Origin: Sphaerochaeta associata
GTDB taxonomy: Bacteria; Spirochaetota; Spirochaetia; Sphaerochaetales; Sphaerochaetaceae
Length of the DNA stretch: 64,000 bases
Direction of reading: 5' to 3'
Assembly: GCF_022869165.1 (NCBI RefSeq)
Contig: NZ_CP094929.1
Span: forward strand, 558,001 to 622,000
Below the pieces are notes generated by a model, which saw only the letters and a list, made by a program, of their open reading frames with translations, ran no database searches and was not told the origin of the DNA. Position numbers and translations under genes: made by a program. Shown in pieces: positions 29,586 to 47,736 of this stretch. Within the stretch, counting starts at the first letter, position 1, and every line of letters starts with the position of its first letter.

Positions 29586-30602
29586 ATGAAGAAAATGGTA
29601 TGTGTAGTGGCAGCTGTGCTCATGCTTGTCATGCCTTTGTTCGCCCAGGCGACAGCGGAAAGCGGACCGAAGAAGTATCAGACGCTGCAGATGTATACTG
29701 CGCTCGATACCGAGGAGGCTCAGTACTACTTGGATGTATTTCAGAAGTCTTCTGGGATCAAGGTAGAGTATGTACGTATGAGCTCTGGTGAGGTTTTGGC
29801 CCGAATGGAGGCGGAGAAGTCCAATCCGCAGGCTAGTGTTTGGTTCGGCGGTTCCAATACCGATCACATCAATGCCCAGTCCAAGGGTCTGCTGACTCCC
29901 TACAAGCCCGCCACTGATTTCGAGCTTGCACCGATGCTGCATGCCGATGATTACAGCTGGAATGGCTTTTATACCGGTGCCATCGGCTTTGTGACCAACA
30001 CCGAGTTTTTGAAGAAGCATAATCTCCAACCCCCCAAGAGTTGGGACGATTTGCTCAACCCTGTCTACAAGGGACAGATTGAAATGGCGTATCCGTATAC
30101 CAGCGGAACCGCCTACACAACCTGGGCCACCATCATTCAAATGAAAGGTTTGGCCGGAGCCCTCGATTGGTGGGAGAAGTTCGATAAGAACGTTCATCAG
30201 TACACCAAGAGCGGTACTGCCTGTATCGCACGCGCCGGCCTTGGCGAATGTGCCGTCGGCATCTCCTTTTCCCACGATATTGTTGCAAAGGGTGTTGCCA
30301 TGGGGTATCCGTTGGTCATGAGCTTCCCCGAGGAAGGAACCGGCTATGAAGTTGGTGCAGTTTCCATGATCAATGGGGCCAGGCAGGTGGAAGAAGCCAA
30401 GATTTTCATGGATTGGTGTTTCACCGAAGAAGCACAGAACCTGTTCAAGAAGTACTCCCGTCTGCCGGTCAACCCGAAGGCTACCGTTGCAGAAGGTGCT
30501 GTGAAGCTGTCCGACATCAAGTTGATCGACTACGATGCAGTGAAGATGGGTCTTGCCAAGGATGAGTATGTCACCGCTTGGAGAGATCGTATCGGCAAGT
30601 AA
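29586..30602 (+). CDS. ABC transporter solute-binding protein, ferric/phosphosugar (AfuA/FbpA) type
   Basis: 338-residue periplasmic binding protein with signal peptide MKKMVCVVAAVLMLVMPLFAQA. The body (YTALDTEEAQYYLDVFQKSSGIKVEYVRMSSGEVLARMEAEKSNPQASVWFGGS) is that of the FbpA/FutA/AfuA family. No clear iron-binding tyrosine pair near the C-terminus could be confirmed. Some members of this family (AfuA) were shown to bind sugar phosphates rather than iron, and the neighbours (PfkB kinase, glycerol-1-phosphate dehydrogenase-like, isomerase-like proteins) point to a sugar, polyol or phosphorylated sugar here. AAAGGAGG precedes the ATG; a second AAAGGAGG at 29512 has no open frame behind it. 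Confidence 0.85.
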   Translation: MKKMVCVVAAVLMLVMPLFAQATAESGPKKYQTLQMYTALDTEEAQYYLDVFQKSSGIKVEYVRMSSGEVLARMEAEKSNPQASVWFGGSNTDHINAQSKGLLTPYKPATDFELAPMLHADDYSWNGFYTGAIGFVTNTEFLKKHNLQPPKSWDDLLNPVYKGQIEMAYPYTSGTAYTTWATIIQMKGLAGALDWWEKFDKNVHQYTKSGTACIARAGLGECAVGISFSHDIVAKGVAMGYPLVMSFPEEGTGYEVGAVSMINGARQVEEAKIFMDWCFTEEAQNLFKKYSRLPVNPKATVAEGAVKLSDIKLIDYDAVKMGLAKDEYVTAWRDRIGK

Positions 30603-30619
30603 CAGTTCATGTCCGAATT

Positions 30620-30659
30620 CAAGGTGCAATCTCAGCTCTTCCTGTGGGGTTGCACCTTG
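30620..30659 (+). other. Intercistronic hairpin between binding-protein and permease genes
   Basis: Perfect 10-base-pair inverted repeat CAAGGTGCAA/TTGCACCTTG with a 20-base loop, in the 74-base gap before the permease. No T-run follows. A role in 3' protection of the binding-protein mRNA is likely. Confidence 0.6.
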
Positions 30660-30676
30660 CTGTAAAGAGGTAGGTG

Positions 30677-32368: not shown

Positions 32369-32379
32369 GAAGAGAAGCC

Positions 32380-33468
32380 ATGAAAGAAGCATATTTGGAG
32401 TTGAAAGATTTGACGAAGTCCTTCGGAAACGATGCGGACAAGGTAGTTGCCGTCGACCATATCAATTTGCAGGTGAAAGAGGGCGATTTGGTGACCTTGC
32501 TCGGTCCCTCGGGATGCGGAAAGACCACCACCCTCAGGATGATTGCGGGTTTTCATACACCCACCGGAGGTGATGTGTATATCGACGGGGTGAGCATGAA
32601 TCAGATTCCCCCGAACAAACGTCCGACTGCGATGGTGTTTCAGAACTATGCACTGTTTCCGCATATGACGGTTTTTGAGAACATCGCCTATGGGTTGAGA
32701 ATCCGAAAAGAGAGCAATGATGAGGTGAAACGCAAGGTAGAGGATATCATGCGCCTGATCGGCCTGGAGAATCTGGGAGACCGACAACCCCGCCAGCTTT
32801 CCGGCGGTCAACAGCAGCGTGTCAGCCTCGCCAGGGCCTTGGTCATGGAGCCGAAGGTGCTGCTGTTCGATGAGCCGCTTTCCAATCTTGATGCCAAGCT
32901 CCGTGTTTCCACTCGATTGGAGATACGCAAACTGCAGCAGCGGGTGGGGATCACCAGTGTGTATGTCACCCATGACCAGGAGGAGGCGATGACGCTCTCC
33001 GACAAGGTTGTGATCATGGATAGAGGACTGATTCAGCAGGTGGGCTCCCCAGCCGAAATCTACAGCCACCCGGTCAATCGTTTTGTCGCCGGGTTCATCG
33101 GCAAGGCGAACTTTTTGCAGGCGGTTGTGGATTCGGTGGAATCAGAACAGTTGGTTCTGCAGTTTTTGGGCAAGAAGATCGTTGCACCACGTTGGAACAA
33201 GGAAATCAAGACAGGGGATGAGGTGCTCATCGTTGCCAGGCCGGAGTCGATTCTTCCTGAACACCCCAATGAGGAACTGGTGGAAGGAGTGGTTGTCAAC
33301 TCTGTCTACTTCGGCTCGCAGATGCTCTATGAGGTGGAGCTGCCCGACCATACCGTACTTCAGATTGAGGTGGCCGATCCTCAGTATCACCCGATATTCA
33401 CCCAAGGCCACAAAGTCGGATTGGCATTCAAGGACCGCAGCCTTCATGTGCTGCCGATGGAGAAATAA
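32380..33468 (+). CDS. ABC transporter ATP-binding protein, FbpC/PotA type
   Basis: 362-residue ATPase. The Walker A is GPSGCGKTT (about residues 44-52), the signature LSGGQQQRVSLARAL, Walker B VLLFDEPLSNLD and switch histidine in VTHDQEEAM. A C-terminal TOBE-like domain (from about 240) includes VLIVARPESILPEHPNEELVEG. It powers the permease at 30677-32368. It lies 11 bases after the permease and 3 bases before the PfkB kinase. Confidence 0.94.
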   Translation: MKEAYLELKDLTKSFGNDADKVVAVDHINLQVKEGDLVTLLGPSGCGKTTTLRMIAGFHTPTGGDVYIDGVSMNQIPPNKRPTAMVFQNYALFPHMTVFENIAYGLRIRKESNDEVKRKVEDIMRLIGLENLGDRQPRQLSGGQQQRVSLARALVMEPKVLLFDEPLSNLDAKLRVSTRLEIRKLQQRVGITSVYVTHDQEEAMTLSDKVVIMDRGLIQQVGSPAEIYSHPVNRFVAGFIGKANFLQAVVDSVESEQLVLQFLGKKIVAPRWNKEIKTGDEVLIVARPESILPEHPNEELVEGVVVNSVYFGSQMLYEVELPDHTVLQIEVADPQYHPIFTQGHKVGLAFKDRSLHVLPMEK

Positions 33469-33471
33469 AGA

Positions 33472-34347
33472 ATGAACTATGACATCTTGATGCTGGGCCA
33501 CATCTCCCAGGATGTTCTGATCGACCATCAGAACGTACGACAGGACATCGTGGGAGGGGCTGTTGTCTACTCCTCGTTTGCTGCAGGTTCTGCAGGCAAG
33601 CGTGTAAAGGTGATCACCAAGCTTGCGGCCAAGGACCTCAACATCCTCAAGGACCTTGAGCATCCGCTGGTGGACTGGGATGTATTGCCCTCCAGGGAGA
33701 GTACATCGATCAAGAACACCTATTTTACTGCAGACAAGGAGAGGCGCGAGGTGATTCTGCTCTCCCAGGCTGATCCTTTCACCCTCGAGGAAGTACAGGC
33801 AGAGGCCTCCATCTACCACCTTGCCGGCCTGTTCGGCGGTGAAATTCCCGACTCCTTGGTCCTGCCGCTTTCCAAGCGGGGCAAAGTCGCCCTCGACGCC
33901 CAAGGGGTGCTTCGGTGTCTGGATGAACAGAAAAATCTTGTTTTCAAGGACTGGCGGCGCAAGCAGGAGTTGCTTCCCTATATTACCTACTTCAAGACCG
34001 ATGCCGCCGAGGCAAAGATACTCACCGGCTTGGATAACCGACAGGAGGCCGCCCGTCTCTTATACTCCTGGGGGGCCCAGGAGGTGATGCTCACGCACAA
34101 TACCGAGGTGATGGTCTGCCATCAGGGGAACATCCATACTGCTCCATTCACCAACGTCAACAACAGCGGGCGGACCGGACGGGGTGATACCACCTTTGCC
34201 GCCTACCTCGCATGGAGGCAGGACCACGATGCAGCAGAGTCCACCCGCTTTGCTGCTGCACTGTGCAGTCTGAAGATGGAGAAGCCCGGAGTCTTCCGGG
34301 GAACCCTTGAAGAGGTGCTCAAGCGGATGGAGCAGGATCGAATGTAG
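33472..34347 (+). CDS. PfkB/ribokinase-family carbohydrate kinase
   Basis: 291-residue kinase-like protein. The C-terminal PfkB signature appears as NNSGRTGRGDTTFAAYLA, with GRGD in place of the usual GAGD; the catalytic Asp is kept. The N-terminal signature region VGGAVVYSSFAAGSAGKRVKVITKLA is also recognisable. It lies 3 bases after the ATPase, so it is part of the importer operon and probably phosphorylates the imported compound or its product. A terminator follows 20 bases later. The substrate is unknown. Confidence 0.88.
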   Translation: MNYDILMLGHISQDVLIDHQNVRQDIVGGAVVYSSFAAGSAGKRVKVITKLAAKDLNILKDLEHPLVDWDVLPSRESTSIKNTYFTADKERREVILLSQADPFTLEEVQAEASIYHLAGLFGGEIPDSLVLPLSKRGKVALDAQGVLRCLDEQKNLVFKDWRRKQELLPYITYFKTDAAEAKILTGLDNRQEAARLLYSWGAQEVMLTHNTEVMVCHQGNIHTAPFTNVNNSGRTGRGDTTFAAYLAWRQDHDAAESTRFAAALCSLKMEKPGVFRGTLEEVLKRMEQDRM

Positions 34348-34367
34348 TGAATGTATCCGTGGAGTAT

Positions 34368-34404
34368 GGGAGGTGTTTCAAGGGAGACCTCCCTTCTCTT
34401 TTTA
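34368..34404 (+). terminator. Rho-independent terminator after the PfkB gene
   Basis: Stem GGGAGGT/ACCTCCC with a 12-base loop (34368-34393), followed by TTCTCTTTTT. Confidence 0.7.
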
Positions 34405-34432
34405 TTGCAGATTTTCCGTTAATCATTATACT
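34405..34432 (+). promoter_or_regulatory. Promoter of the Gfo/Idh/MocA gene
   Basis: -35 TTGCAG (34405-34410), a 16-base spacer and -10 TATACT (34427-34432), directly after the terminator of the previous operon. Confidence 0.55.
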
Positions 34433-34451
34433 GATGATGCAAGGAGCAGCT

Positions 34452-35597
34452 ATGCACATACTTGGAGTGGCCGTCATCGGTTGTGGCGGTATTTCTAAAG
34501 CGCATGTCGAGGGGTATCAGGCGTTGGGACAGGAGTGTGAGATTCGCTGCCTTTGCGACATCTATCCCCAGAAGATGGAGAGCCTGAAACAACAATATAT
34601 GCTAGGCAATTTGGTTGAAGTGGAAGATTATCACCAGTTGCTCGATCGGAAAGACATTGACTTGGTCTCCATTTGCCTTCCTCCCTCACTGCACTGTCAG
34701 GTTTCGGTTGATTTTCTCAGAGCCGGTAAACATGTTCTGTGTGAGAAGCCTATGGCGCCTTCTCTTGCTGAGTGCGACATTATGATGAAAGCCGAGATTG
34801 AGAGCGGAAAAATGCTTTCCATCGTTTCGCAGAACCGCTTTAAAACCGATACGATGCGCATGAAAGCCTTGATTGAAGGAGGCAAGCTCGGCAAGGTGTT
34901 GCTGGCTCGCGTCAACTCCATGTGGTGGAGAGGCTCGAAGTATTACGACCTTTGGTGGCGCGGAACCTATGAGAAAGAAGGTGGAGGCTGCACGCTCAAC
35001 CATGCAGTGCACCAGATTGATATACTGGTTTGGCTCCTTGGCATGCCGCAAAGCGTGTACTCAGTCATGAGTAATGTGGCGCATACCAACTCGGAGGTGG
35101 AGGATCTCTCTCTTTCAATACTAACGTATCCAGGAATGCTCGCCCAGGTTGACGCTGCTTTGGTCGACCATGATGAGAAGCAGGAATTTTTCTTCGCTTG
35201 TGAAAAGGCTACAGTAGGTATTCCTTGGATGGTCAAGGCATGCAAACAGCGGCCGAATGGATTTCTTGAGCCGAACTTGGAACAGGAGCGGGAGCTGAAC
35301 AGGTTTGTAGAAACCCTGCCGATGCTTGAGAAGGAACGGCATGCAGCCCAGATTGAGGATGTAGTGCAGGCTGTTCTCAGCGATCGAACTCCTTGTGTGA
35401 CATCAAAGGATGGGCGTAATGCAGTCGAGCTGATCAGTGCCATGTATAAGAGTGCAACATGTACTCACAGCGTAATACTTCCTTTGGAGTCTGAAGACCC
35501 GTTCTACACTCAGGAAGGAATGATGAGGCATGCGGTTCGTTATTACAAGAAACAACAATCAGTGGATAACCTTGAGGATGCTGGAATAACCTTGTAG
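34452..35597 (+). CDS. Gfo/Idh/MocA-family oxidoreductase
   Basis: 381-residue NAD(P)-dependent sugar or inositol dehydrogenase-like enzyme. The Rossmann start is VAVIGCGGISKAHVEGYQ, the family motif CEKPMAPS follows near residue 100, and the substrate domain contains GGGCTLNHAVHQIDILVWLLG with the catalytic His region. The ATG at 34452 follows AAGGAG; the frame is open 35 codons further upstream but without a start signal. It is a single gene between a terminator and the convergent AraC gene (19-base gap). Its position beside the glycan locus suggests a role in metabolism of a released sugar. Confidence 0.9.
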   Translation: MHILGVAVIGCGGISKAHVEGYQALGQECEIRCLCDIYPQKMESLKQQYMLGNLVEVEDYHQLLDRKDIDLVSICLPPSLHCQVSVDFLRAGKHVLCEKPMAPSLAECDIMMKAEIESGKMLSIVSQNRFKTDTMRMKALIEGGKLGKVLLARVNSMWWRGSKYYDLWWRGTYEKEGGGCTLNHAVHQIDILVWLLGMPQSVYSVMSNVAHTNSEVEDLSLSILTYPGMLAQVDAALVDHDEKQEFFFACEKATVGIPWMVKACKQRPNGFLEPNLEQERELNRFVETLPMLEKERHAAQIEDVVQAVLSDRTPCVTSKDGRNAVELISAMYKSATCTHSVILPLESEDPFYTQEGMMRHAVRYYKKQQSVDNLEDAGITL

Positions 35598-35616: not shown

Positions 35617-36612
35617 TCAGCGAAGCATCGCTGATCGCTTTCCTTCCTGCTCCTCGGGGGTCTGCAATATCCTGGGCAGCGATGCATGGGCATTACGCTC
35701 GGGGTCGGACTGACGAAGAAGCAGTAGTGATTGGTGATTCACATCCTTTCTGAACTCAGTCGGATTCATGTTGCAGTATTTGTGGAAAACACGGTTGAAC
35801 TGACTGAATGAGGAAAATCCACATCGTGAGCAGATATCCCTGATCGGGGTAGTGCTGTACAGCAACAGGTTCTGTGCATTACGCACCCGAACCAGTTGAA
35901 GGTAGGTGATGTAGGTCGTACCGGTCACCTCCTTGAATTGCCTTGAGAGATAGAAGGGACTTATGGAGAACTTGAGGGCTATGTCGGCAAGCGGCAGGTC
36001 CTCTTCGAAATGGCTGTGCATGTAGCTGGTGACTTCGTAGATTTTCTGGGTGATCGAGTCGACAATCTCCTGCTTGGTATAGCGATTGGCCTTCCTGTTG
36101 GTGGCAATGATCCAGAGAATCCTCTGGAAGGTGTTGTGGATCATCAAATCCGAGCCGGGAATGCTGCTTGTTCCCATCAGGTAGATTTCATTGAAAAGCT
36201 TGATGATGCCTTGCAGGATGGTCGGCTCGAACCGATAGATGGGAATCTTCTCCTCGAACAAGGAGAGCAGTCGCTCCGTCTGTCGCTCAAACCCGATGGG
36301 AATCGGGAACTGAAAGGCAATTACAAGCCGAGACTTCGAACTCTCGTGCTCCGGGTAGAGACTCTTATGCAGGCACATCGGCTTGAGCAGCACTATGTCG
36401 CCACGTTGCAAGGAAAAGTATTCACCCTCGATGATGTGTGTCGCAGCATCGTCGAGCAGGACATACACCTCATAGTAGGTGTGAAAGTGCTGGAACTCCA
36501 TATTCAAATGGCGTTTCTGATAATCGAAGACATAAAAGACAGGATCATCCACCTGATTGACCTTGATGACCAAGGACTCATTGAAGAGCATGTCCAATTT
36601 TTCGTACTTCAT
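35617..36612 (-). CDS. AraC-family regulator with N-terminal cupin domain (paralogue 1)
   Basis: 331-residue regulator. The N-terminal half is a sugar-sensing cupin-like domain (NMEFQHFHTYYEVYVLLDDA, IIEGEYFSLQRGDIVLLKP). The C-terminal half has the AraC double helix-turn-helix: LPLADIALKFSISPFYLSRQF and TPIRDICSRCGFSSFSQFNRVF. It is closely related along its whole length to the regulator at 46714-47736, including an unusual shared tail (SDPERNAHAS versus LDPERNTDAT). It is divergent from the 839-residue toroid gene, with an inverted repeat in between, and probably activates the glycan locus. Confidence 0.92.
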   Translation of the reverse strand: MKYEKLDMLFNESLVIKVNQVDDPVFYVFDYQKRHLNMEFQHFHTYYEVYVLLDDAATHIIEGEYFSLQRGDIVLLKPMCLHKSLYPEHESSKSRLVIAFQFPIPIGFERQTERLLSLFEEKIPIYRFEPTILQGIIKLFNEIYLMGTSSIPGSDLMIHNTFQRILWIIATNRKANRYTKQEIVDSITQKIYEVTSYMHSHFEEDLPLADIALKFSISPFYLSRQFKEVTGTTYITYLQLVRVRNAQNLLLYSTTPIRDICSRCGFSSFSQFNRVFHKYCNMNPTEFRKDVNHQSLLLLRQSDPERNAHASLPRILQTPEEQEGKRSAMLR

Positions 36613-36664
36613 GCTCCCATCCTACTGTAAAACGCATGAAATGCAAGCTCGAATATATTTCTCA

Positions 36665-36686
36665 GCAAGAAATACGTGGTTCTTGC
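36665..36686. promoter_or_regulatory. Inverted repeat between the AraC gene and the toroid gene
   Basis: GCAAGAA-atacgtgg-TTCTTGC, two perfect 7-base arms. It overlaps the position of the -35 box for the -10 TATACT at 36700-36705; the -35 itself (TGGTTC) is poor, as in activator-dependent promoters. The 10-mer GCAAGAAATA recurs at 52150-52159. Confidence 0.5.
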
Positions 36687-36699
36687 AATAAAGCGGGCA

Positions 36700-36705
36700 T
36701 ATACT
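36700..36705 (+). promoter_or_regulatory. -10 box of the toroid gene
   Basis: TATACT, 22 bases before the ATG at 36728. No consensus -35 is present, which suggests that activator binding at 36665-36686 is needed. Confidence 0.45.
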
Positions 36706-36727
36706 TCTCTATGTGGGAGGACCATCC

Positions 36728-39247
36728 ATGCAATATCTTACCTATGCATTACAGCAAGGCGGCATCATCAATCGGTTTCTCGTCAGTGAAACGCATACAC
36801 AACCTGTCAGGGGTGAAGCCGTAGTCATTCAAAAAGAGGCGAATGTCTGGGAAGGCTCGGTGGGTGCGGCAACGCATGTGAATCCCGTGAGGGAAACCTT
36901 TGTCCAGCAGCGAAGACAGGCCATTGAATCCTATCCAACGTTCATCGAAAAACAGGCTGGAGGATCAGTCCTCATCGACGGGACAGCTCATCAGCTTTCA
37001 GCCCGTTTTCCCTTCAACGACCCGGTGCTCTCACTTTCCGGCTTCTATCCCAATCCTACGTGGATCAGTGCAACAGCAATCACCTACCTCGACTCACAAA
37101 AGCAGAGGGATGTCGGTTGCGTTCTCTCTGTCTGTGGAGGAGCCAGAATTTGGGTTAATGAAAACCTGGTGGCTTCGTTTACTCCGCACTTGAGAAACCA
37201 GATGCAGCAGACACACATTGTGCTCCCGCTGAAAGTGGGTGAGAACGAAGTGGTGGTGTTCTGGGATGAGTTTGCAGAGCGTGACAGCGATTGTTCCTTT
37301 TCTCTATCCCTGGATTCAGACTGTGAAGGACTTGTCCAGAAGCTGCCCATCGGCGAGTGCGATGCCGCTCTGGTTCTGGCGGTGGAGGAAGCGTTGGGAA
37401 ACCTCAGTTGCAGGAGCAATCATGTACGGAAAGGCGAGGTCGAATTGTTCTGTCCCAATCCGTATGAGCATCAGACTCTTGAGATCCACCTTATCGGAGC
37501 CACCGAAGAGAACTTCATGGTCGGAGATCTCTACGAGACTACGGCGGTCATTCTTCCCGGAAAGAACACCTGCTCCCTCGGGCCCTGCGAAAAGCTGCCC
37601 ATCGGATATCTGCAGTTCAAGGCAACGGCAGTGGTACAGGGGATGAGCATGAGCTATCACCTGGCGTTTGAGAACTTCCCCCTCTCCCTGGTTCCACAGG
37701 CAAAAGCGACCATGGATGAGCGCAAGCAACAGGCTTTCGAGGTGCTTGCCCGGTACGGAGAGCGCAACGCAAATCGTGCGGTTGCAATCCTGCATGCAGA
37801 CGGACCGAGGGATGAGTTTGAGCATATCCTGCGCCGTCAGATCACCTTCATCAACAAGCGAAGCGATTGCAGTGACTTCTATCTCTCCTATTTTCCCCAT
37901 ATCCTGAGAACCTTTGCCGACCATCCCTATGTTACCGAGGATTTGAAAGAGGAGATGAAGCACTGCCTGCTCAATTTCCGTTACTGGCACGATGAACCCG
38001 GTGACGACGCCATGTGGTTCTACAGCGAGAACCACGCCCTTATGTTCCATGTCTGCCAGCTGCTCGCCGGAGAGCTGTATCCGGATGAGGTGTTTACCAA
38101 CAGCGGCATGACTGGGGCCCGGATGCAGGAAAAAGCCGTCGGCTTGCTGCGCCCGTGGTTTGAGACCTTCTTCGCCATCGGGTTCACCGAGTGGAACAGC
38201 CCTCCCTACCTGCCCATCGATGCACTGGGGTTTGCCAGCCTGTATGCACAGACAAGCAATCAGGAGATGAAGGACCTGGCCAGGAAGGCGATGGACTCAA
38301 TCTATTACATTCTTGCAATCAACTCACTCGATGGGATTTTCTGTACCACCGCCGGCCGCACCTATCCCAAGGAGTTGTTCGGAAACAACTCCAACTGTCC
38401 ATCCTTCATCAATTGGATCGGCTATGGCATCGGCAATACCAGCCACGCCGGCAAGGGTGTGACCGCCCTCTGTTTCTCCGACTACCAGGCTCCACAGGAG
38501 TACCGCCAATTCTGTCAGGTTCCCAAAGGCAAGGCGCTTATCAGCCAGTCGACGCACGGCTACAACGGACACGCCGATGTGTATGTCTGTAAAACCTCCT
38601 GTTCACTGCTCAGCAGCGCCAACAACTTCCGAGTCGGAGAGCGTGGGTTCCAGGAGAATCCCATCCACCTTATCTTTTCAGCCACCGAGCAGGTATGGAT
38701 TAACCACCCGGGCGAACACAACCTATTCGGCCATGCCCGGCCATCCTACTGGGCGGGTAACGGGACGTTGCCGCGGGTGAACCAGTATGAGAACTTTGCT
38801 TGTGTTGTTTTCAACAATGATCCTGCCCATCCTGTAGATTTCACCCATGTCTACCTGCCGACCATGGAGTTCGCTTCTTTTGAGAGGAGAGGCAGCTGGC
38901 TCTTTGCTGCATCGCATAATGGAGGGTATGTCGGTGTGTACTGCTCCCAATACCTTGAGCCTGCAGGCTACGGTCCGAACAAGGAGCGTGAGTTCATCGC
39001 AGCAGGCAGGAAGGCCGTCTATCTGCTGAGGGTGGGGTCGCAGTGCAGCTTCGGCAGCTTTGCATCTTTCATCAAGGCGATGCTCGATTCTGATTTGTCG
39101 GCAACAGATCAGGCGTTTGTATTCGAGGACCCGTCCCTCGGTCGTCTGGAGGGGGGCTGGGACGCATCATTGGAGGTCCAAGGACAGACGATCAAGTACA
39201 ATAATTTTGACCCGGTTGGAACGAATCTGTGGTATGTGGAGCGATAA
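36728..39247 (+). CDS. Uncharacterised large protein, alpha/alpha-toroid polysaccharide-lyase-like architecture
   Basis: 839 residues with no signal peptide, so cytoplasmic. Three regions can be seen. An N-terminal beta-rich part (about 1-330) resembles the carbohydrate-binding beta-sandwiches of glycoside hydrolases (CGGARIWVNENLV, LPLKVGENEVVVFWDEFAER). A helical middle (about 335-590) has FYSENHALMFHVCQLLAGEL near residue 430 and GFTEWNSPPYLPIDALGFAS near 485, typical of an alpha/alpha toroid. A C-terminal beta-rich part has HGYNGHADVYVC near 610 and WAGNGTLPRVNQYEN, reminiscent of heparinase II/III-type lyases. No catalytic activity is established. ATG at 36728 follows GGAGG. It sits next to an oligosaccharide importer, GH38 and GH105 genes, so it probably acts on the imported glycan. 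Confidence 0.7.
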   Translation: MQYLTYALQQGGIINRFLVSETHTQPVRGEAVVIQKEANVWEGSVGAATHVNPVRETFVQQRRQAIESYPTFIEKQAGGSVLIDGTAHQLSARFPFNDPVLSLSGFYPNPTWISATAITYLDSQKQRDVGCVLSVCGGARIWVNENLVASFTPHLRNQMQQTHIVLPLKVGENEVVVFWDEFAERDSDCSFSLSLDSDCEGLVQKLPIGECDAALVLAVEEALGNLSCRSNHVRKGEVELFCPNPYEHQTLEIHLIGATEENFMVGDLYETTAVILPGKNTCSLGPCEKLPIGYLQFKATAVVQGMSMSYHLAFENFPLSLVPQAKATMDERKQQAFEVLARYGERNANRAVAILHADGPRDEFEHILRRQITFINKRSDCSDFYLSYFPHILRTFADHPYVTEDLKEEMKHCLLNFRYWHDEPGDDAMWFYSENHALMFHVCQLLAGELYPDEVFTNSGMTGARMQEKAVGLLRPWFETFFAIGFTEWNSPPYLPIDALGFASLYAQTSNQEMKDLARKAMDSIYYILAINSLDGIFCTTAGRTYPKELFGNNSNCPSFINWIGYGIGNTSHAGKGVTALCFSDYQAPQEYRQFCQVPKGKALISQSTHGYNGHADVYVCKTSCSLLSSANNFRVGERGFQENPIHLIFSATEQVWINHPGEHNLFGHARPSYWAGNGTLPRVNQYENFACVVFNNDPAHPVDFTHVYLPTMEFASFERRGSWLFAASHNGGYVGVYCSQYLEPAGYGPNKEREFIAAGRKAVYLLRVGSQCSFGSFASFIKAMLDSDLSATDQAFVFEDPSLGRLEGGWDASLEVQGQTIKYNNFDPVGTNLWYVER

Positions 39248-39316
39248 AACGCAAGATATGCACACTCAAAACGGTTTATTGGGCAAAAAAGTTGTAGTTT
39301 TCTATCTATGGCTCTT

Positions 39317-39343
39317 TATACTGAAGATGAGAGCATAGCTCTC
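39317..39343 (+). promoter_or_regulatory. -10 box and start-site hairpin upstream of the oligosaccharide binding-protein gene
   Basis: TATACT (39317-39322) is followed at the expected start site by a perfect small hairpin GAGAGC-ATA-GCTCTC (39329-39343), which would form the very 5' end of the mRNA. TTGTAG lies 19 bases upstream of the -10, longer than ideal. The hairpin may stabilise the mRNA or act as an operator. Confidence 0.45.
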
Positions 39344-39380
39344 CAATTCGATTTGTTTTCTCATACGTAGGAGGTATGAT

Positions 39381-40649
39381 ATGAAGAAAGTATCGATGAT
39401 TCTCTTGATGGTTCTTCTGCTCTCCGGCATGGTTTTCGCTGCCGGAACAAAAGAAGCTGCCGCTGCCGGCCCTCAGGTATTGAAGGTTATGCTCAGCGAG
39501 GAACCTTCGAGTGAGGATGCCCTGCTCAATACCCTCAAGAAGTGGGCTGCCGAGACAGGAAACACTTTGGATGTCATGGTAATTCCGTACGAAGACCAGT
39601 TGACCAAGTTCCCCTTGATGGCGCGCAACAATGATTTGCCCGACCTTCTCACCACAACTCGTCTATCCCGCCTCTATCCGGATGAGTTCCTTGATATGGC
39701 ACAGTATTTTGACATGTCCATCTTCGAGCCTATGGCCGTTGAGATCATCGTCCAGGACTACAAGTCATCCAAGAAGTCCATCCTGCCGCAGCAGTTCACG
39801 ATTACCAATGTGTACTACAACAAGGATGCTTTTGCTCGTGCCGGCATCACCGCCCCCACGATTGAGAAGCCTTGGACCCTTGATGAGCTGGAGAAGAATG
39901 CCATCCTGCTCAAGGAGAAGGGTGGTGTGAAGTACGGCATGGCAATGGATGCCTCCCGTGCACGCTATGACAACATGATGTATGCCAATGGCGGATCGAT
40001 GGTTGAAAAAGACGGGGCAAGTTTTGATGTCGCCATCAACAGCCCGCAGAATATCGCCGCCCTGCAGCGGTTCATCGACTGGAACAATAAGTTCATGCCC
40101 AAGGCCATCTGGGCCGGCGGTACGACTGACAACCCGGCCGACTACTTCAAGAACGGCGACGTAGGCATCTACTTCAGCGGAAGCTGGAACTACAACTCCT
40201 TCTACAACCAGATCAAGAACTTCAAATGGGGCGTCATGCCTTCACCGGTTGGAAAGAGTGCGAGTGCCATTCTCGGTGGAAGCGGTCTTGGCGTACCGGC
40301 GAATGCAAAGAACAAGGACCTGGCCATCTCCTTCCTCAAGTGGTTCTACACCAAGGAAAACTTCCAGGAGTATCTTAATCGCGACAAGGGTCTCTCATCC
40401 TTGGTCGGCGTGACGTACTCTCCTCTAGATGCACAGGTTGCTGAAGACTACAAGGTATTGCAGAGTGAAGTCGGCAAGGTCACCTATGCATTCAGCACCG
40501 ACGAGAGTTCCATGTGGAGAAACTTCTACGACAATGAGTACCGCGATGCCATGAAACAGGCTGTCAACGGCGATCTCACCGCCGCAAAGGCTCTCAATGA
40601 TTTTGCAGCCCTGCTTTCCAAGAAGTCCGGCTGGGATCTCAAGTATTAA
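39381..40649 (+). CDS. Oligosaccharide-binding protein of an ABC transporter (family 1)
   Basis: 422-residue solute-binding protein. The signal peptide MKKVSMILLMVLLLSGMVFA is followed by AGTKEAAAAG. Family-1 features include NNDLPDLLTTTRLSRLYPD, VYYNKDAFARAGITAPTIEKPWTLDELEKNA, GDVGIYFSGSW and AKNKDLAISFLKWFYTKENFQEYL. AGGAGG precedes the ATG. Its cognate permeases lie at 40736 and 41611; no ATPase is encoded nearby, which is common where one MsmK/UgpC-type ATPase serves several importers. By context the ligand is an oligosaccharide containing mannose and/or an unsaturated uronic acid. Confidence 0.92.
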   Translation: MKKVSMILLMVLLLSGMVFAAGTKEAAAAGPQVLKVMLSEEPSSEDALLNTLKKWAAETGNTLDVMVIPYEDQLTKFPLMARNNDLPDLLTTTRLSRLYPDEFLDMAQYFDMSIFEPMAVEIIVQDYKSSKKSILPQQFTITNVYYNKDAFARAGITAPTIEKPWTLDELEKNAILLKEKGGVKYGMAMDASRARYDNMMYANGGSMVEKDGASFDVAINSPQNIAALQRFIDWNNKFMPKAIWAGGTTDNPADYFKNGDVGIYFSGSWNYNSFYNQIKNFKWGVMPSPVGKSASAILGGSGLGVPANAKNKDLAISFLKWFYTKENFQEYLNRDKGLSSLVGVTYSPLDAQVAEDYKVLQSEVGKVTYAFSTDESSMWRNFYDNEYRDAMKQAVNGDLTAAKALNDFAALLSKKSGWDLKY

Positions 40650-40656
40650 GTGTTCT

Positions 40657-40687
40657 ATCCGGGCTGTCCGGTACGGGCGGCCCGGAT
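40657..40687 (+). other. Intercistronic hairpin between oligosaccharide-binding protein and permease genes
   Basis: Perfect 8-base-pair inverted repeat ATCCGGGC/GCCCGGAT with an inner CCG-GTA-CGG hairpin, beginning 7 bases past the binding-protein stop. No T-run follows. Confidence 0.65.
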
Positions 40688-40735
40688 GATTCAATTGGAA
40701 GAAGCAAGGTGTTGTATGCCAACCGGGGGGATGAT

Positions 40736-41614
40736 ATGAAGACACGATATGTGAAACGGCACGTAAGAGCCTTCTGGCTGTTCGTAGCTCCCTGTCTGTT
40801 GCTGTTTTCCACCTTCTTCCTCGTCCCGCTTGGGTTGAGTGTGGGATTTTCCTTCACCAACTACGATGGATGGAAGACGATAAACTTCATCGGATTGGCA
40901 AATTACAGGGAGTTGTTCGCTGACACCAAGTTCTATCAATCGCTTGGAAGGACGTTTGCCTACACACTGTTCAGCCTTCCTTTCAAGGTCGTCGTTCCGC
41001 TGCTCATCGCCAGCCTGGTCACTTCCAAACGGGTTGCCATCAAAGGTCTGGCAAGGACGCTGACCTATATCCCTTCCTTGCTCAGTGCTCTGGTCGTCGG
41101 TATTACGATCAACTGGATGTTCAGCGCCGAGTACGGACTGGTCAATTACGTCATCCAACTACTTGGAGGAAAGCCGCTTCAATGGGCCCTTAACCCCAAG
41201 CTTGCCACTTTTGTAATCAGTTTTGCCTCCAACTGGGCTTCCACCGGATTTTACATGGTAATCTTCATCGGCGGGCTCAACAACATATCCCGTGACATCT
41301 ATGAGGCAGCGGCCATCGATGGAAGTTCCAATGTGCAGACCTTTTTACGCATCACCATTCCCATGCTCGCCCCCACCACCTTCCTGGTGACCTTGCTTTC
41401 CACGGTCAATCTGCTGAAGGAGTACGCACTGGTCCAAGGTATCACCCAAGGCGGACCGGGCTTGAATACCACCTTCATCATCCAGTTCATCTTCGACAAG
41501 GGCTTCAACCAGATGCAGTACGGCTACGCTTCGGCCATCTCCTTGGTTGTCATGGTAATTTTCTCCTTCATCGCCTATGTCCAGTTCAAGTTCAGCAATG
41601 GAGGTGACCGATGA
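40736..41614 (+). CDS. Sugar ABC transporter permease, MalF/UgpA type
   Basis: 292-residue permease with six predicted helices. It starts MKTRYVKRHVRAFWLFVAPC; the conserved early segment is FTNYDGWKTINFIGLANYRE. The EAA loop is YEAAAIDGSSNVQTFLRITI. The ATG at 40736 is chosen over the frame start at 40709 because of its position after GGGGGGATG and the usual N-terminal length. It overlaps the next permease by 4 bases. Confidence 0.93.
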   Translation: MKTRYVKRHVRAFWLFVAPCLLLFSTFFLVPLGLSVGFSFTNYDGWKTINFIGLANYRELFADTKFYQSLGRTFAYTLFSLPFKVVVPLLIASLVTSKRVAIKGLARTLTYIPSLLSALVVGITINWMFSAEYGLVNYVIQLLGGKPLQWALNPKLATFVISFASNWASTGFYMVIFIGGLNNISRDIYEAAAIDGSSNVQTFLRITIPMLAPTTFLVTLLSTVNLLKEYALVQGITQGGPGLNTTFIIQFIFDKGFNQMQYGYASAISLVVMVIFSFIAYVQFKFSNGGDR

Positions 41615-42447
41615 ACAAGCCTTCGCTTCGCGTTTCCAAAACATTGATCCCTTCGGCGTTGACGTTGATTGTCTCCCTGGCCATCCTCTTTCCCATCGTT
41701 TGGCTGGTTCTGAGCTCGTTCAAGGAGACAGGGGAACTCTTCAGCTATCCTTTGGCCATGTTCCCCTCCCGCTTCACCTTCATTCATTACCAAAAGGTCA
41801 TTGGTGAAGGCTTTTTCGGCTATGTCTTCAACAGCCTCTTTCTGGCTGTGGTGGGAACTGCAATAACCTTGGTGATCAGCGCCATGTGCGGTTATGCATT
41901 GGCGATCTATCGGCAAGAAGTCTCCTATACCAATTTGGTGTTCGGCATCTTCCTCCTGGGTACCCTGATTCCCGGCGAGACACTGACCGTGCCGCAGGTG
42001 ACGGTTATCAGCGAGCTGGGCCTGTACAACAACATCTGGGGAGTCATTCTTCCTGTGGTGACCACGACGACCGGAATTTTCATGTTCCGTCAGCACTACC
42101 TGTCCATCCCTCTCTCGTTTGTGGAAGCGGCCCGCATCGACGGCAGCAATGAGGCACAGACCTTCCTCTATGTCATGCTTCCGCTTGGAACCTCAAGTAC
42201 GGTCACGCTTGCCATCTTCAGCTTCATGTGGCGTTGGAATGACTACATCCTGCCGTTGCTTGTCCTGAGCGACCAGAAGAAGTACACCATTCAGATTGCA
42301 ATCAAGAATTACATTGGATTCAATGGCGTCGACTGGAGCAGCATTCTCTCAGCCTCGGTCATGTCGATCATCCCGATCATCATCTTGTTCATCATTTTAC
42401 AGCGATACATCGTTGGAGGACTTTCGGCGTCAGGGGTGAAAGGGTAA
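41611..42447 (+). CDS. Sugar ABC transporter permease, MalG/UgpE type
   Basis: 278-residue partner permease. It has the MalG-type beginning (LIVSLAILFPIVWLVLSSFK, then ETGELFSYPLAMFPSRFTF) and EAA loop VEAARIDGSNEAQTFLYVML, and ends in GGLSASGVKG, typical of this subunit. It overlaps its partner by four bases and is followed 9 bases later by the GH38 gene, so transporter and mannosidase are one operon. Confidence 0.94.
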   Translation: MNKPSLRVSKTLIPSALTLIVSLAILFPIVWLVLSSFKETGELFSYPLAMFPSRFTFIHYQKVIGEGFFGYVFNSLFLAVVGTAITLVISAMCGYALAIYRQEVSYTNLVFGIFLLGTLIPGETLTVPQVTVISELGLYNNIWGVILPVVTTTTGIFMFRQHYLSIPLSFVEAARIDGSNEAQTFLYVMLPLGTSSTVTLAIFSFMWRWNDYILPLLVLSDQKKYTIQIAIKNYIGFNGVDWSSILSASVMSIIPIIILFIILQRYIVGGLSASGVKG

Positions 42448-42456
42448 ACTGCTGCT

Positions 42457-45400
42457 ATGACAAAACAACAGCTCCAACTATTCGTTCAGGGTCCTCTTCA
42501 GGTACTCAACCAAAGCCGGTATGCTCAGATGCTGGATGTGCAGGATCTGCAGTATAAAACATGCGCCTACCATGACTGGGGTGTACGCCTCGAGGCAGAT
42601 GGCTGGCTGCCGTTCGACCGAAGCCGCGGCTTTGGGGGTAGGGAGTATCATGCCCTCTTCAAGACCGCTCTGAAAGTACCCCCCTCATGGATGGGGGGAA
42701 AGGTCAGGCTGAAGGTGGAGACCGGCTCGTCGGACATTTGGAACTTCAACAACCCGCAGTTCCTGGTCTACCTCAATGATAAGCTTTCCTGCGGCTTTGA
42801 TGTCCGTCATACCGAAGTAGATCTTCCCGACATGGAGGATGTCGAGCTTGTCCTGTACTGCTATGTCTCCAGCGAGAAGCAGGATGTGTTTCTGGATGTC
42901 AGCATATACCTTGTCAACGAAGAGCTTGAGGCTTTCGTCTACGACCTCGGTCTTGCCTATGAAACTGCAATGACGGTCGAATATGACAGTGAGGCATATA
43001 TAACTCTCAGTAAAGCCTGTATTGAGGCTGTCAAGGCAGTGGACTTCTCCAGTCTGAAGGCGTTGCAGAATGTTTCCATGCTTACGAAGGCAAGGGCCGT
43101 TCTTTCTCAAATTCTTAGCTCAGGTACTTCACCTTCCAAGGCAAAGGTGGCCGTTGTGGGACACAGTCATATCGATATGGCATGGTTGTGGACAGTCGAC
43201 CAGACCCGGGAGAAAGGCATACGAAGCTACGCCACAGTACTCTCCTTGATGGAACAGTATCCCGACTATGTCTTCAGTTCCAGCCAGATGCAGCTGCTTG
43301 CCTTCATCAAGGCCGATATGCCCTCCTTGTATGACCGGATAAAGGCCCGGATCGATGAGGGCAGGTGGGAAGTGGAAGGGGGTATGTGGGTCGAGAGCGA
43401 TACCATCCTCACCAGCGGGGAGTCTCTTGTACGCCAGTTCTACTGGGGGAAAAAGTGGATGAGGGATGAGTATGGAAAAGAGAGTGTAGTTCTCTGGCTT
43501 CCCGACTGCTTCGGGTTCCCTGCCACCTTGCCGCAGATCATGAAAGGTGCGGGCATCTCCTATTTTGTGACCACCAAGCTTGGGTGGAATGAGACCAATC
43601 GATTCCCCCACGACGTCTTTGCATGGCAAGGCTTGGACGGAAGCCGGGTCTTGAGCTATCTGGTCAGCACCACCGACTACGAGAGTCTTGCTTCCTATCC
43701 AAAGAAAACAAGCAACGAGACCACCTACAACGGAGTGCTCACTCCCAGCCAGATTCTCGGAACCCGCCAGCGATTTCAGGACAAGGCCCTTTGTTCCTCC
43801 AATCTTCATCTGTATGGCTATGGTGATGGCGGAGGGGGACCGACAAAGCAGATGCTTGAGAACCATCAGCGAATGAAGACGGGCCTTCCCGGTCTTCCTA
43901 AAACATATAGCAGCACGGTCCGTTCGTTCTTGGATACCGTAAGGAACGAGGTGCCAGATCCCCCTGTTTGGGCGGGAGAGCTTTACCTTGAGTACCACCG
44001 GGGTACCTACACCACCATGGCTGAAGTCAAACGGCTCAATCGGTTGTGTGAACAAAAGGCCTTCGCCTCCGAATTCTTCTGCTGTCTTGCCTGGGCTTTG
44101 GATGCAAGGCAAAGGTATCCCCATCAAAGCTTTGAGGCGGCGTGGAAGCTGCTGGCACTCAATCAGTTCCATGACATTCTTCCCGGCTCCTCCATCAAGG
44201 AAGTCTATGAGACAACCATTCCCCAGCTCACCCAGATTACAACAACCTTCGATGAAGCAGCCTCCCAGGCCCGCTCATTCCTGGCTTCCAACATAGCAAA
44301 GGCTGCCGAGGATGTAGTTGTTTTCAACACGTTGGATTTTGTCCGCAACGATCTATGCACCATCGAAGCTGCTTCGTATTGCAGCATTCATGACGAGACC
44401 GGCAGGCGTCTTCCTTCCTGCAAGCAAGGCTCAAAACTCCATTTCATCGCTTGCAAGGTACCGTCCAAGGGATGGAAGCGGTATCGATTGGGAAATGAGC
44501 ACGCTGAATCAGAGAGCCCTTTCTCTTGGGCCGAACCAAACCTCAGCACGCCCTATTACGAGGCGACCTTTGCCGAAGATGGCTCATTGGCGCGTCTGTA
44601 TGACAAGCAACAGAGGCGGGACGTGCTTGCACAAGGCAAGCGTGGCAATGTTCTATCCCTATCGGTTGACCTTCCCAAGGAGTATGATGCCTGGAATATC
44701 GGCAAGCAGGGTGCTTTGATGCAGTATGCCTTGGACGGCGAGGTGCGCTACCGCGTACTCTCTTGTTCTGAGGTTGGGATCACGCTCGAAGGTACATGGA
44801 CGTGGCTCAAGTCGACCTACCGGCAGCGCATCACCTTCGGCGCCCACTCCAAGCGCATTGATTTCAACCTGCATGTCGATTGGAGGGAAGACCACCTGAT
44901 GCTTCGTACAGCCTTCGACGTCGATGTCCGGGCTATGCGCGCATCGTATGACATCGCCTTCGGGGTGTGTGAGCGCAGCACCCATACCAACACGAGTTGG
45001 GATGAGGTGCAGTTCGAGGTGCCGGCCCACAAGTGGGTTGACCTGAGTGAGAAGACCCATGGGGTGGCGCTGCTCAGCAAACAATCGTATGGATACTCGG
45101 CTAAGGGTAATACCCTGACGCTCTCCTTGCTGCGCGCCCCCACCTATCCAAGCCCTCAAGCCGACAGGGGCGAGCATGACTTCTCCTATGCCCTTCTGCC
45201 TCATGCAGGTGGTTATGAGCAAGGCAAGGTGATCGAGGAGGGCTACGCACTTCATCAGAGCCTGATCGCCGAGCGTTCGGAGCAGGTGTGCGATAAGTTG
45301 GATGATCACTTCAGTTTGGTTGAAGCGACCGGCGATGGTGTTGTAATTGAGACCATCAAGAAGTGCGAAGAGCGGGCTTCGCTCATCCTGCGCTTGATCA

Positions 45401-45579
45401 GCATGGCAGGCAGGGATGGCGTATGTACGCTGCGTTCGGCGCTTGCAGTCAAACAGGTGTGGATATGTAATCTGGTCGAAGAACGACTCGAGCAACTGTC
45501 CGTGGCAGGACAAATGGTGGAGATTGCGATGAAAGGACATGAGATTGTAAGTGTGGAACTTGTCCTGAACGATGAATGA
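42457..45579 (+). CDS. Glycoside hydrolase family 38 alpha-mannosidase
   Basis: 1040-residue GH38 enzyme without a signal peptide. An N-terminal galactose-binding-like region (1-220) precedes the catalytic domain. The zinc motif is GHSHIDMAWLW (His238, Asp240), followed by WEVEGGMWVESDTILTSGES, and the nucleophile is Asp350 in LWLPDCFGF. The helical domain has LLALNQFHDILPGSSIKEVY with another zinc ligand. C-terminal beta domains complete the typical length. GH38 enzymes release alpha-linked mannose. It is flanked by importer genes and the GH105-type gene, which suggests cytoplasmic trimming of imported mannose-containing oligosaccharides. Confidence 0.94.
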   Translation: MTKQQLQLFVQGPLQVLNQSRYAQMLDVQDLQYKTCAYHDWGVRLEADGWLPFDRSRGFGGREYHALFKTALKVPPSWMGGKVRLKVETGSSDIWNFNNPQFLVYLNDKLSCGFDVRHTEVDLPDMEDVELVLYCYVSSEKQDVFLDVSIYLVNEELEAFVYDLGLAYETAMTVEYDSEAYITLSKACIEAVKAVDFSSLKALQNVSMLTKARAVLSQILSSGTSPSKAKVAVVGHSHIDMAWLWTVDQTREKGIRSYATVLSLMEQYPDYVFSSSQMQLLAFIKADMPSLYDRIKARIDEGRWEVEGGMWVESDTILTSGESLVRQFYWGKKWMRDEYGKESVVLWLPDCFGFPATLPQIMKGAGISYFVTTKLGWNETNRFPHDVFAWQGLDGSRVLSYLVSTTDYESLASYPKKTSNETTYNGVLTPSQILGTRQRFQDKALCSSNLHLYGYGDGGGGPTKQMLENHQRMKTGLPGLPKTYSSTVRSFLDTVRNEVPDPPVWAGELYLEYHRGTYTTMAEVKRLNRLCEQKAFASEFFCCLAWALDARQRYPHQSFEAAWKLLALNQFHDILPGSSIKEVYETTIPQLTQITTTFDEAASQARSFLASNIAKAAEDVVVFNTLDFVRNDLCTIEAASYCSIHDETGRRLPSCKQGSKLHFIACKVPSKGWKRYRLGNEHAESESPFSWAEPNLSTPYYEATFAEDGSLARLYDKQQRRDVLAQGKRGNVLSLSVDLPKEYDAWNIGKQGALMQYALDGEVRYRVLSCSEVGITLEGTWTWLKSTYRQRITFGAHSKRIDFNLHVDWREDHLMLRTAFDVDVRAMRASYDIAFGVCERSTHTNTSWDEVQFEVPAHKWVDLSEKTHGVALLSKQSYGYSAKGNTLTLSLLRAPTYPSPQADRGEHDFSYALLPHAGGYEQGKVIEEGYALHQSLIAERSEQVCDKLDDHFSLVEATGDGVVIETIKKCEERASLILRLISMAGRDGVCTLRSALAVKQVWICNLVEERLEQLSVAGQMVEIAMKGHEIVSVELVLNDE

Positions 45580-45588: not shown

Positions 45589-46671
45589 ATGCAAGAAGTA
45601 GATGAGACATTGAAAAAATTGGTTGCAGGGTTTTTGCCGGTGCTATATGCCCCCGATGATCCTGATTATGCTTCCCATAAACTGGCAAGTGCCATTGATG
45701 ATGCCCATCGCAAGCTGTATCAGTTTTGGGAGTGGCCCCATGGGGTCGGTCTCTTCGGGCTGTGGAAGCTGTTTGAGAAGACCAAGGAGAAACAGTATTT
45801 GGATATTCTCACCCAGTACTACGATCAGCGTATCGCCCAGGGCTTGCCTGGAAAGAACGTCAACACGATGGCTCCCATCCTTGCACTCTCTTTCCTTGCC
45901 GAGTATACGAATAAACAGGCGTATATGGATATTGCCGTTGAATGGGTCGAGTGGGTGATGGAAGGAGGTCTTGACCGGACCGAGGAAGGCGGGTTCCAGC
46001 ACCGCACCACCGATGATGAGAATCCCGGGGAGCTGTGGGACGACACCCTGATGATGACTGTCCTTGCGGTTGCCAATGTGGGGCGAATCCTTGGAAGACA
46101 AGAGTACATCGATGAGGCAGTCTACCAATTCCTGCTGCATGTTGAGTATCTGTGTGATGTGAAGAGCGGTCTCTGGTACCACGGGTGGACCTTCGAGGGG
46201 CGGCATCACTTCAGCGAGGCCTTCTGGGGTAGGGGCAACTGCTGGGTGACCATTGCAATTCCAGTATTTCTGGAGATGGTGGAGGTGAGCGCCTCTGTCA
46301 GCCGTTACCTGAAGACTGTGCTGGTGCGTCAGATCAAAGCCTTGGCAACGCTGCAGGATGAGAGCGGGATGTGGCACACTGTGTTGGACGACCCGACCAG
46401 CTATTTGGAGAGCAGTGCAACCTGCGGCTTCGGATACGGGATTCTCAAGGCGGTGAACATGGGTCTGCTTGACCGCTCGTACTGTGCTATATCGGATAAG
46501 GCATTGTGTGCGCTGCTTGCTGTGGTGGATAAGGACGGTGTGGTTCAGCAGGTCTCCTATGGAACCCCGATGGGACGGGAGAGCAAGAACTTCTACAAGG
46601 AGATTCCGCTGAGGCCGATGCCCTACGGACAAGCGCTTGCCATGCTGTTCCTGATGGAAAATCAAGGGTGA
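45589..46671 (+). CDS. Unsaturated uronyl/rhamnogalacturonyl hydrolase, GH105 (GH88-related)
   Basis: 360-residue (alpha/alpha)6-barrel enzyme of the YteR/YesR type. Characteristic pieces are NVNTMAPILALSFLAEYTN, WDDTLMMTVLAVANVGRI (catalytic Asp151 or Asp152), GLWYHGWTFEGRHHFSEAFW and WGRGNCWVTIA. These enzymes hydrate the 4,5-unsaturated uronic acid left by a polysaccharide lyase and release it from the oligosaccharide. There is no signal peptide. It lies 9 bases after the GH38 gene. Its presence implies that a lyase made the substrate, either outside the cell or through the 839-residue toroid protein. Confidence 0.9.
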   Translation: MQEVDETLKKLVAGFLPVLYAPDDPDYASHKLASAIDDAHRKLYQFWEWPHGVGLFGLWKLFEKTKEKQYLDILTQYYDQRIAQGLPGKNVNTMAPILALSFLAEYTNKQAYMDIAVEWVEWVMEGGLDRTEEGGFQHRTTDDENPGELWDDTLMMTVLAVANVGRILGRQEYIDEAVYQFLLHVEYLCDVKSGLWYHGWTFEGRHHFSEAFWGRGNCWVTIAIPVFLEMVEVSASVSRYLKTVLVRQIKALATLQDESGMWHTVLDDPTSYLESSATCGFGYGILKAVNMGLLDRSYCAISDKALCALLAVVDKDGVVQQVSYGTPMGRESKNFYKEIPLRPMPYGQALAMLFLMENQG

Positions 46672-46713: not shown

Positions 46714-47736
46714 ATGGAACAGTGGGATAAGAGATTGTTATTCAAGCAGGATTTCTCGATCACCGTCAACAATGACAGAAGCCCGCTGTTCTATGTATTT
46801 GACTATGGGGTTCGCTCGGATTCCATGAATATGGAGTTCCAGCACTTTCACGACTTCTATGAACTTTTCTTCTTGGTGGACGACCATGCCAGTCATATCA
46901 TCGAAGGGGAGTATTTCAGTTTGCAACGGTATGACTTGGTGCTGCTCAAGCCTTCCTTGTTGCATATGACGATGTATCCCAAAGGTGAAAATCCCAAATC
47001 CCGGCTCATTGTGGCGTTTCGCATCCCTCTCGAAGTACCGGGCTTGGAGCGTCAACTCAAGAGGCTGTTCACCGTCTTTGATGAGCAGCCTCCGATTTTT
47101 CGGTTTCCTCTGGAAGTGCAGGCTAAAGTCGTAGAGCTGCTCAATTCGATATACATTTTGGGTAGTGAGCTGCGAGTCGGATATGAGTTGATGGTTCACA
47201 GCAAGTTTCTTGAACTCTTATGGCTTCTCTTTACACATCGAAAGGCGAATACCTACGCCAAACAGGAGATAACCGATTCGATCACCCAGAAAATCTATGA
47301 AGTGACCAGCTATCTGCATACCCATTTTCAAGAGGAGTTGAGCCTGCAGCTTGTTGCTGACTATTTCACCGTCAGTTCATTTTATCTTTCCCACCAATTC
47401 AAGCGGGTGACGGGGTTGAACTTTGTGAACTATCTACAGCAGATCAGAGTAAAGAACGCCCAACAGTTGCTTCTCTACTCTCCGCTCAAGATCAAGGATA
47501 TTTGCGAGCAGTGTGGTTTCTCCTCCTTCAGTCAGTTCAATCGGGTGTTCTCCAAGTTCTGCAGTGTTACTCCCTCAGCGTTCAGAAAGAATAGTGATCA
47601 CCGATCGGAGCAGATGCTTCGATCCCTCGATCCGGAGCGCAATACCGATGCAACGCCCTCGAAGGCGCTGCAGAGCGAGGATGAGTATCGGGCGGTAAAG
47701 AAGAAGGAGCTGCTTACGAAAGAGACGGTACGGTGA
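46714..47736 (+). CDS. AraC-family regulator with N-terminal cupin domain (paralogue 2)
   Basis: 340-residue regulator homologous over its full length to the one at 35617-36612. Shared stretches include NMEFQHFHDFYELFFLVDDH, HIIEGEYFSLQRYDLVLLKP, KANTYAKQEITDSITQKIYE, GFSSFSQFNRVF and the tail DPERN. The DNA-binding half is in LSLQLVADYFTVSSFYLSHQ and LKIKDICEQCGFSSFSQFNR. The two recognition helices are similar but not identical, so overlapping or diverged operators are possible. It follows the GH105-type gene by 42 bases with its own leaderless-type promoter and overlaps the convergent larA-like gene by 23 bases. Confidence 0.92.
   Translation: MEQWDKRLLFKQDFSITVNNDRSPLFYVFDYGVRSDSMNMEFQHFHDFYELFFLVDDHASHIIEGEYFSLQRYDLVLLKPSLLHMTMYPKGENPKSRLIVAFRIPLEVPGLERQLKRLFTVFDEQPPIFRFPLEVQAKVVELLNSIYILGSELRVGYELMVHSKFLELLWLLFTHRKANTYAKQEITDSITQKIYEVTSYLHTHFQEELSLQLVADYFTVSSFYLSHQFKRVTGLNFVNYLQQIRVKNAQQLLLYSPLKIKDICEQCGFSSFSQFNRVFSKFCSVTPSAFRKNSDHRSEQMLRSLDPERNTDATPSKALQSEDEYRAVKKKELLTKETVR

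Follow-up and report, generated by a model that had tools for sequence, protein, structure and literature searches.

GH105 enzymes remove unsaturated uronate and require a lyase to produce their unsaturated substrate. The xanthan pathway of human-gut R.UCG13 employs an oligosaccharide-specific PL8 lyase along with GH88, GH38 and ABC genes (PMC10881899), and for several lyase families of the toroid fold, catalytic triplets have been published (PMC12088678 Table 4): N192-Y246-H401 for PL35 (+54/+155), N240-Y294-H424 for PL12, H311-Y365-H531 for PL15 (Atu3025; +54/+166), N201-Y258-H413 for PL17 (+57/+155) and N186/H187-Y239-H405 for PL39 (+53/+166). The protein considered here, P0001, is encoded within a 64,000-nucleotide stretch of the Sphaerochaeta associata genome (contig NZ_CP094929.1, positions 558,001 to 622,000), hereafter "the window". 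Judging from its predicted model and its partner genes, P0001 is very probably a cytoplasmic poly- or oligosaccharide lyase of the toroid-plus-beta-sandwich superfamily, belonging to a large sequence family that is absent from Pfam, NCBIfam and the PDB. A beta-elimination lyase acting upstream of GH105 would explain the fold, the conserved residues and the gene context together.

The gene and its surroundings

The P0001 reading frame comprises 839 codons without an internal stop, its ATG at 36728 has a GGGAGG ribosome-binding site 7 bases upstream (the GTG at 36713 being the alternative start), and, because relatives of 46–86% identity align with it full-length in many genomes, it is a real gene. 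The earlier note had proposed just such an 839-residue protein at 36728–39247, devoid of a signal peptide and sitting with an oligosaccharide importer, GH38 and GH105-type genes: the stop-free frame, ribosome-binding site and full-length relatives bear out the first of these claims, a hydrophobic N-terminal stretch was looked for in P0001 and not found, in agreement with the second, and a binding protein, two permeases, a GH38 and a GH88/GH105 gene confirm the third (Table 1).

Table 1. Coordinates of the P0001 gene, its parts and its neighbors in the window
Feature	Position	Strand	Remarks
AraC-family regulator	35617..36612	-	Divergent from the operon
Putative cytoplasmic uronate-oligosaccharide lyase P0001, 839 aa	36728..39247	+	ORF, conservation, predicted fold
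P0001, N-terminal part	36728..37690	+	Beta-sandwich, residues ~9-200 (GH2-jelly-roll/PA14-like, Z ~9), and linking beta part, 201-321
P0001, catalytic region, residues 322-839	37691..39244	+	Helical toroid, then C-terminal antiparallel beta-sandwich; pLDDT 94.5 when modelled alone; fold matches
S433-E434-N435-H436	38024..38035	+	N435 proposed carboxylate neutraliser; start of helix 434-450; role from spacing
Y494	38207..38209	+	Proposed catalytic Tyr; start of helix 494-508; putative role
H660	38705..38707	+	Proposed catalytic His of the beta-domain, NHPGE motif; putative role
ABC transporter sugar-binding protein (SBP_bac_1)	39381..40649	+	
ABC transporter permease	40709..41614	+	
ABC transporter permease	41611..42447	+	
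GH38 alpha-mannosidase family protein	42457..45579	+	Four GH38 domains, all over curated cut-offs
GH105-type unsaturated uronyl hydrolase	45589..46671	+	D152 aligns with YteR catalytic D143
AraC-family regulator	46714..47736	+	End of the operon

The two AraC regulators that bracket the operon are similar and look like paralogs. A search for a sigma-70-like promoter over 36500–48000 of the window gave no match, with shuffled sequences averaging 7.7 (sd 3.0). Past the operon, the minus strand carries a lactate racemase (LarA)-like gene (47714–48970) directly downstream of a phosphoglycerate-kinase-like one (48974–50254) and a glyceraldehyde-3-phosphate-dehydrogenase-like one (50242–51273), both of these being recognised by eye only. 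A separate upstream cluster (26177–35597) encodes a glycerol-1-phosphate-dehydrogenase-like protein, two sugar-isomerase-like TIM barrels, an ABC importer with a fused double permease, a PfkB kinase and a Gfo/Idh/MocA oxidoreductase.

The sequence family and its distribution

The P0001 gene is present as a single copy in its own 3.55 Mb genome, and full-length relatives of 54–86% identity occur within the same genus, family and class (close matches include organisms named Spirochaetales and Bullifex), copies elsewhere in the taxonomic family showing 47–49% identity. Scanning 84,980 species genomes with one conserved peptide returned at least 593 matches, of which at least 582 encode P0001 relatives, and these homologous loci belong to Spirochaetota, Bacillota, Alpha- and Gammaproteobacteria. 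A plasmid search yielded 199 records with a P0001 homolog, mostly from Rhizobium and some of them unannotated. The homolog of R. etli CFN 42 goes under the RefSeq name "hypothetical protein".

Pfam, NCBIfam and PHROGs searches with P0001 gave no match, and neither did an NCBIfam search with 22 diverse family members; the same 22 members had, in Pfam, weak single-member matches and PA14 in four members (best 0.0012), none of them to a lyase family, the PA14 matches being consistent with the PA14-like N-terminal sandwich. Searching PDB sequences with P0001 or with either of two family profiles brought up no lyase, the characterised members of PL15, PL17, PL33, PL35 and PL39 that have structures showing no sequence similarity to P0001. 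The Lyase_8 Pfam models of PL8 matched neither P0001 nor 21 relatives, and a PF08124 (PL8) search of the same genomes, in which the controls were equally silent, returned nothing. A literature search that covered few subscription journals brought up no publication that names the family. The earlier note had recognised no described CAZy family either, which agrees with the lack of a relevant Pfam, NCBIfam or PDB sequence match to P0001.

As the alginate-lyase families in CAZy run to at least PL44 (PMC12336832), P0001 could be thought of as a lyase of an existing CAZy PL family that happens to have no Pfam, NCBIfam or PDB representative; this, however, seems unlikely in view of the silence of all three resources towards lyase families for P0001 and the 22 diverse members, the RefSeq name of the R. 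etli homolog and the outcome of the literature search. A predicted lyase activity and a known fold class, combined with no relevant Pfam, NCBIfam or PDB sequence match, make P0001 a candidate for a new PL family within that fold class, and we consider it reasonably probable that this is a previously undescribed PL family of at least several hundred members that usually partners GH105 in the cytoplasmic breakdown of uronate oligosaccharides, is spread over spirochaetes, Bacillota of gut and soil, and rhizobia, and has secreted or anchored distant relatives.

Distant relatives from spirochaetes are about 690 aa long, and their neighbors are a symporter of the GPH type, Gfo/Idh, ThuA and a KDG-kinase-like gene, one of their loci also having a GH105; some distant relatives possess an N-terminal membrane or lipoprotein segment, which P0001 does not. 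One cluster (L177) encodes an FAD protein, ThuA, Gfo/Idh, a GPH symporter and a lyase-like protein, with gene sizes and order being similar in L178, L180, L181 and L183; the cluster of the distant, shorter branch possibly serves a different chemistry. Elsewhere, Eisenbergiella tayi (L089) has three family members within 12 kb (649–3099, 3095–5395 and 10001–12493), two of which overlap by a few bases, and in Lacrimispora ASCUSBR21 (L127) the family gene is split into overlapping frames (10001–10957 and 10929–12374) by a frameshift or a sequencing error.

Predicted fold and candidate catalytic residues

AlphaFold2 modelled the full P0001 from a 66-sequence alignment at a pLDDT of 93.4 and a pTM of 0.92, the parts following one another as an N-terminal beta-sandwich, a helical toroid and a C-terminal beta-sandwich, which is the architecture the earlier note had anticipated. 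When the whole model was submitted to Foldseek, GH2 enzymes ranked first, which might speak for a toroid-fold glycoside hydrolase instead of a lyase; VIA-align, however, placed the GH2 match on the N-terminal sandwich (residues 9–200) and aligned residues 326–827 with PL39, PL8, PL21, PL17, PL12 and PL15 lyases (Z 9–10.7). Because the GH2 ranking came from the N-terminal sandwich, a separate model of the catalytic region was made and searched. It matched lyases, with GH127, GH146 and GH95 matches not being significant, and P0001 being a hydrolase is thus very improbable.

For this region, the only Foldseek matches at E<1e-3 were 8khv/8khw (PL35 GAGases), 3afl (PL15 Atu3025) and 8r6z (PL33), and the best 50 VIA alignments (Z 7.9–10.8 over 360–438 residues, identity 6–11%) were all to superfamily lyases and dermatan sulfate epimerase 1. 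The alignments are loose (rmsd 5–7 Å, a Z near 10 being only moderately above background), and so they indicate that the fold is shared, not that the proteins are closely related. The predicted model nevertheless has the helical toroid followed by an antiparallel beta-sandwich that defines the toroid-fold lyase superfamily, so that the structure prediction and fold search, proposed in the earlier note as a check, did reveal a toroid, one matching PL8, PL12, PL15, PL17, PL21, PL33, PL35 and PL39 lyases. Since dermatan sulfate epimerase shares this superfamily fold, with 6hzn (DSE1) aligning at Z 9.9 over 433 residues, P0001 might also be imagined as a uronosyl C5-epimerase, yet an epimerase would not need the adjoining GH105, and the family genes sit in catabolic import operons, which renders this reading extremely improbable. 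As for the resemblance to heparinase II/III-type lyases suggested earlier, it holds at the level of the fold (Z ~10) but not in the sequence: a comparison of an 87-sequence profile with 23 spirochaete PF07940 proteins gave an hhalign probability of 0.4%, and no PF07940 Pfam match was obtained for P0001 or the relatives searched.

Two of the three motifs singled out in the earlier note are nearly invariant among 87 homologs, namely SENH (433–436; E434 in 87/87, N435 in 86/87 and H436 in 87/87) and EWNSPPY, or EW.S..Y at 488–494 (E488 in 87/87, S491 and Y494 in 86/87 each). The third, HGYNGHADVY, did not hold up, as just 14 of 66 close homologs have a His at position 610 (G611 is invariant). The idea that it is a heparinase H-x-H site was therefore dropped, and H660, conserved in 85/87, became the candidate in its place. 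R544, Y546 and H707 are each kept in 86/87, and the divergent homolog L016 lacks N435, Y494, R544 and Y546.

N435-Y494-H660 (+59, +166) is the only N/Y/H triple conserved in at least 95% of the 87 members that has a lyase-like spacing, and a triple of this kind arose in 1.5% of trials when the same number of conserved N/Y/H residues was placed at random. A conserved Asn/His, a Tyr and a beta-domain His at the spacing characteristic of the superfamily are, therefore, all present, and comparison with the published triplets suggests catalytic roles for N435, Y494 and H660.

The GH105 partner, the proposed pathway and known systems

The partner enzyme matches PF07470 (E=9e-93), has GH105 chains as its nearest PDB neighbors and retains the catalytic Asp along with the conserved Trp and Arg; an Asp equivalent to YteR D143 was seen in 69/69 aligned GH105 neighbors. 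Among 79 homologous loci from named genomes, which are not independent of descent, a GH105 gene lies within 10 kb of the family gene in 64 and directly adjoins it on the same strand (gap below 300 bp) in 47. By group, the 10 kb association was found in 17/20 loci of Spirochaetota, 39/47 of Bacillota, 7/9 of Alphaproteobacteria, 1/1 of Gammaproteobacteria and 0/2 of Halanaerobium. With six PF07470 genes per 3.55 Mb in the own genome, chance proximity would be expected at a few per cent of loci. This recurrence across phyla (Spirochaetota, Bacillota, Alpha- and Gammaproteobacteria) strengthens the earlier argument that a lyase feeds the GH105, and the lyase interpretation of that note is supported as a whole.

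Other recurrent neighbors are ABC importers, AraC regulators, GH28, GH36, GH38 and GH31, and some neighborhoods feature KduI, mannonate dehydratase (UxuA) and KDG-kinase-like genes; PF04962 (KduI) homologs are present in the own genome as well. The gene order on R. etli p42f is "hypothetical protein"-GH88-GH28-ABC importer. Two further recurrent neighbor families have no Pfam or NCBIfam match (L106:8948-10588, ~547 aa, and L069:2988-4181, ~398 aa), with homologs in 8 loci each. Four heparinase II/III-type matches to PF07940 are also present in the own genome, and a GH88/105 gene lies within ~2 kb of two of these (C1:80705-81316 with 82514-83374, and C1:1079229-1079837 with 1077153-1077998), which is a parallel lyase-hydrolase pairing.

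The partner also scores 448 bits against NCBIfam NF051900 "beta-galactosidase BglB" (cut-off 420), a name that misfits an unsaturated-uronide hydrolase, conflicts with PF07470, the PDB neighbors and the catalytic Asp, and for which the literature search returned no source. Were the partner a glycosidase BglB, P0001 could be a beta-eliminase of 3-keto-glycosides formed by Gfo/Idh/MocA oxidation at C3, a reading to which the Gfo/Idh/MocA and sugar-isomerase TIM-barrel genes recurring in some neighborhoods, and the distant branch with ThuA plus Gfo/Idh, would also lend themselves. It is quite improbable, however: structural comparison returns uronate lyases, the partner retains the catalytic Asp of GH105 together with the conserved Trp and Arg, the KduI, KDG-kinase-like and UxuA neighbors belong to uronate catabolism, and Gfo/Idh neighbors are far rarer than GH105.

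From the fold, the conserved residues and the gene context taken together, we infer that P0001 is active as a lyase. In that case the ABC importer would take up an oligosaccharide that contains uronate, the carboxylate of the +1 uronate would be neutralised by N435 (H436 perhaps assisting), and Y494 and H660 would serve as base and acid in a beta-elimination that breaks the linkage at the uronate C4. The product would bear a 4,5-unsaturated uronate at its non-reducing end, which the adjacent GH105 enzyme would remove, the released 5-keto-4-deoxyuronate presumably entering the KduI/KDG route, and, in the window, the GH38 enzyme would remove an alpha-mannose. As GH38 suggests a mannose-containing substrate (GlcA-Man), the operon in the window most likely targets a GlcA/Man-containing substrate, whereas GH28 beside relatives suggests pectin-derived ones, and specificity thus probably varies across the family. 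If this holds true, the family would constitute a new sequence family among lyases, supply the missing lyase step in many clusters where the annotation goes no further than "hypothetical protein", allow hundreds of clusters to be interpreted (in gut Lachnospiraceae, on rhizobial megaplasmids and in spirochaetes) and serve as a new tool to cut uronate-containing gums and pectins.

Of the known systems, PL35 (GAGase II/VII, 8khv/8khw) and PL33 (BtPL33HA, 8r6z) share the toroid and beta-sandwich with P0001 and are its best Foldseek matches, PL35 also having an Asn-Tyr-His triple in the same order and at similar spacing, but identity is ~10%, there is no sequence match, and P0001 has an additional N-terminal beta-sandwich. 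The fold is likewise common to the oligo-alginate/exo lyases of PL15/PL17 (Atu3025, Alg17c, exoHep) and PL39 Dp0100, the triple spacing is close to that of PL15 and PL39 (+53/54, +166), and the N-H pair is as in PL39 (N186, H187); P0001 differs from all three in having no sequence match to them and in its GH105-coupled operons, and it is not known to act on alginate. Heparinase II/III (PL21/PL12, PF07940) resembles P0001 in fold and not, as detailed above, in sequence. Compared with the R.UCG13 xanthan pathway, P0001 is not a PL8 by sequence, and no GH5 xanthanase, GH94 or esterase was identified among the genes of the operon; PL8 xanthan lyase structures are, however, among the fold matches, and the operon has the same combination of a (predicted) lyase, an unsaturated uronyl hydrolase, a GH38 mannosidase and an ABC importer.
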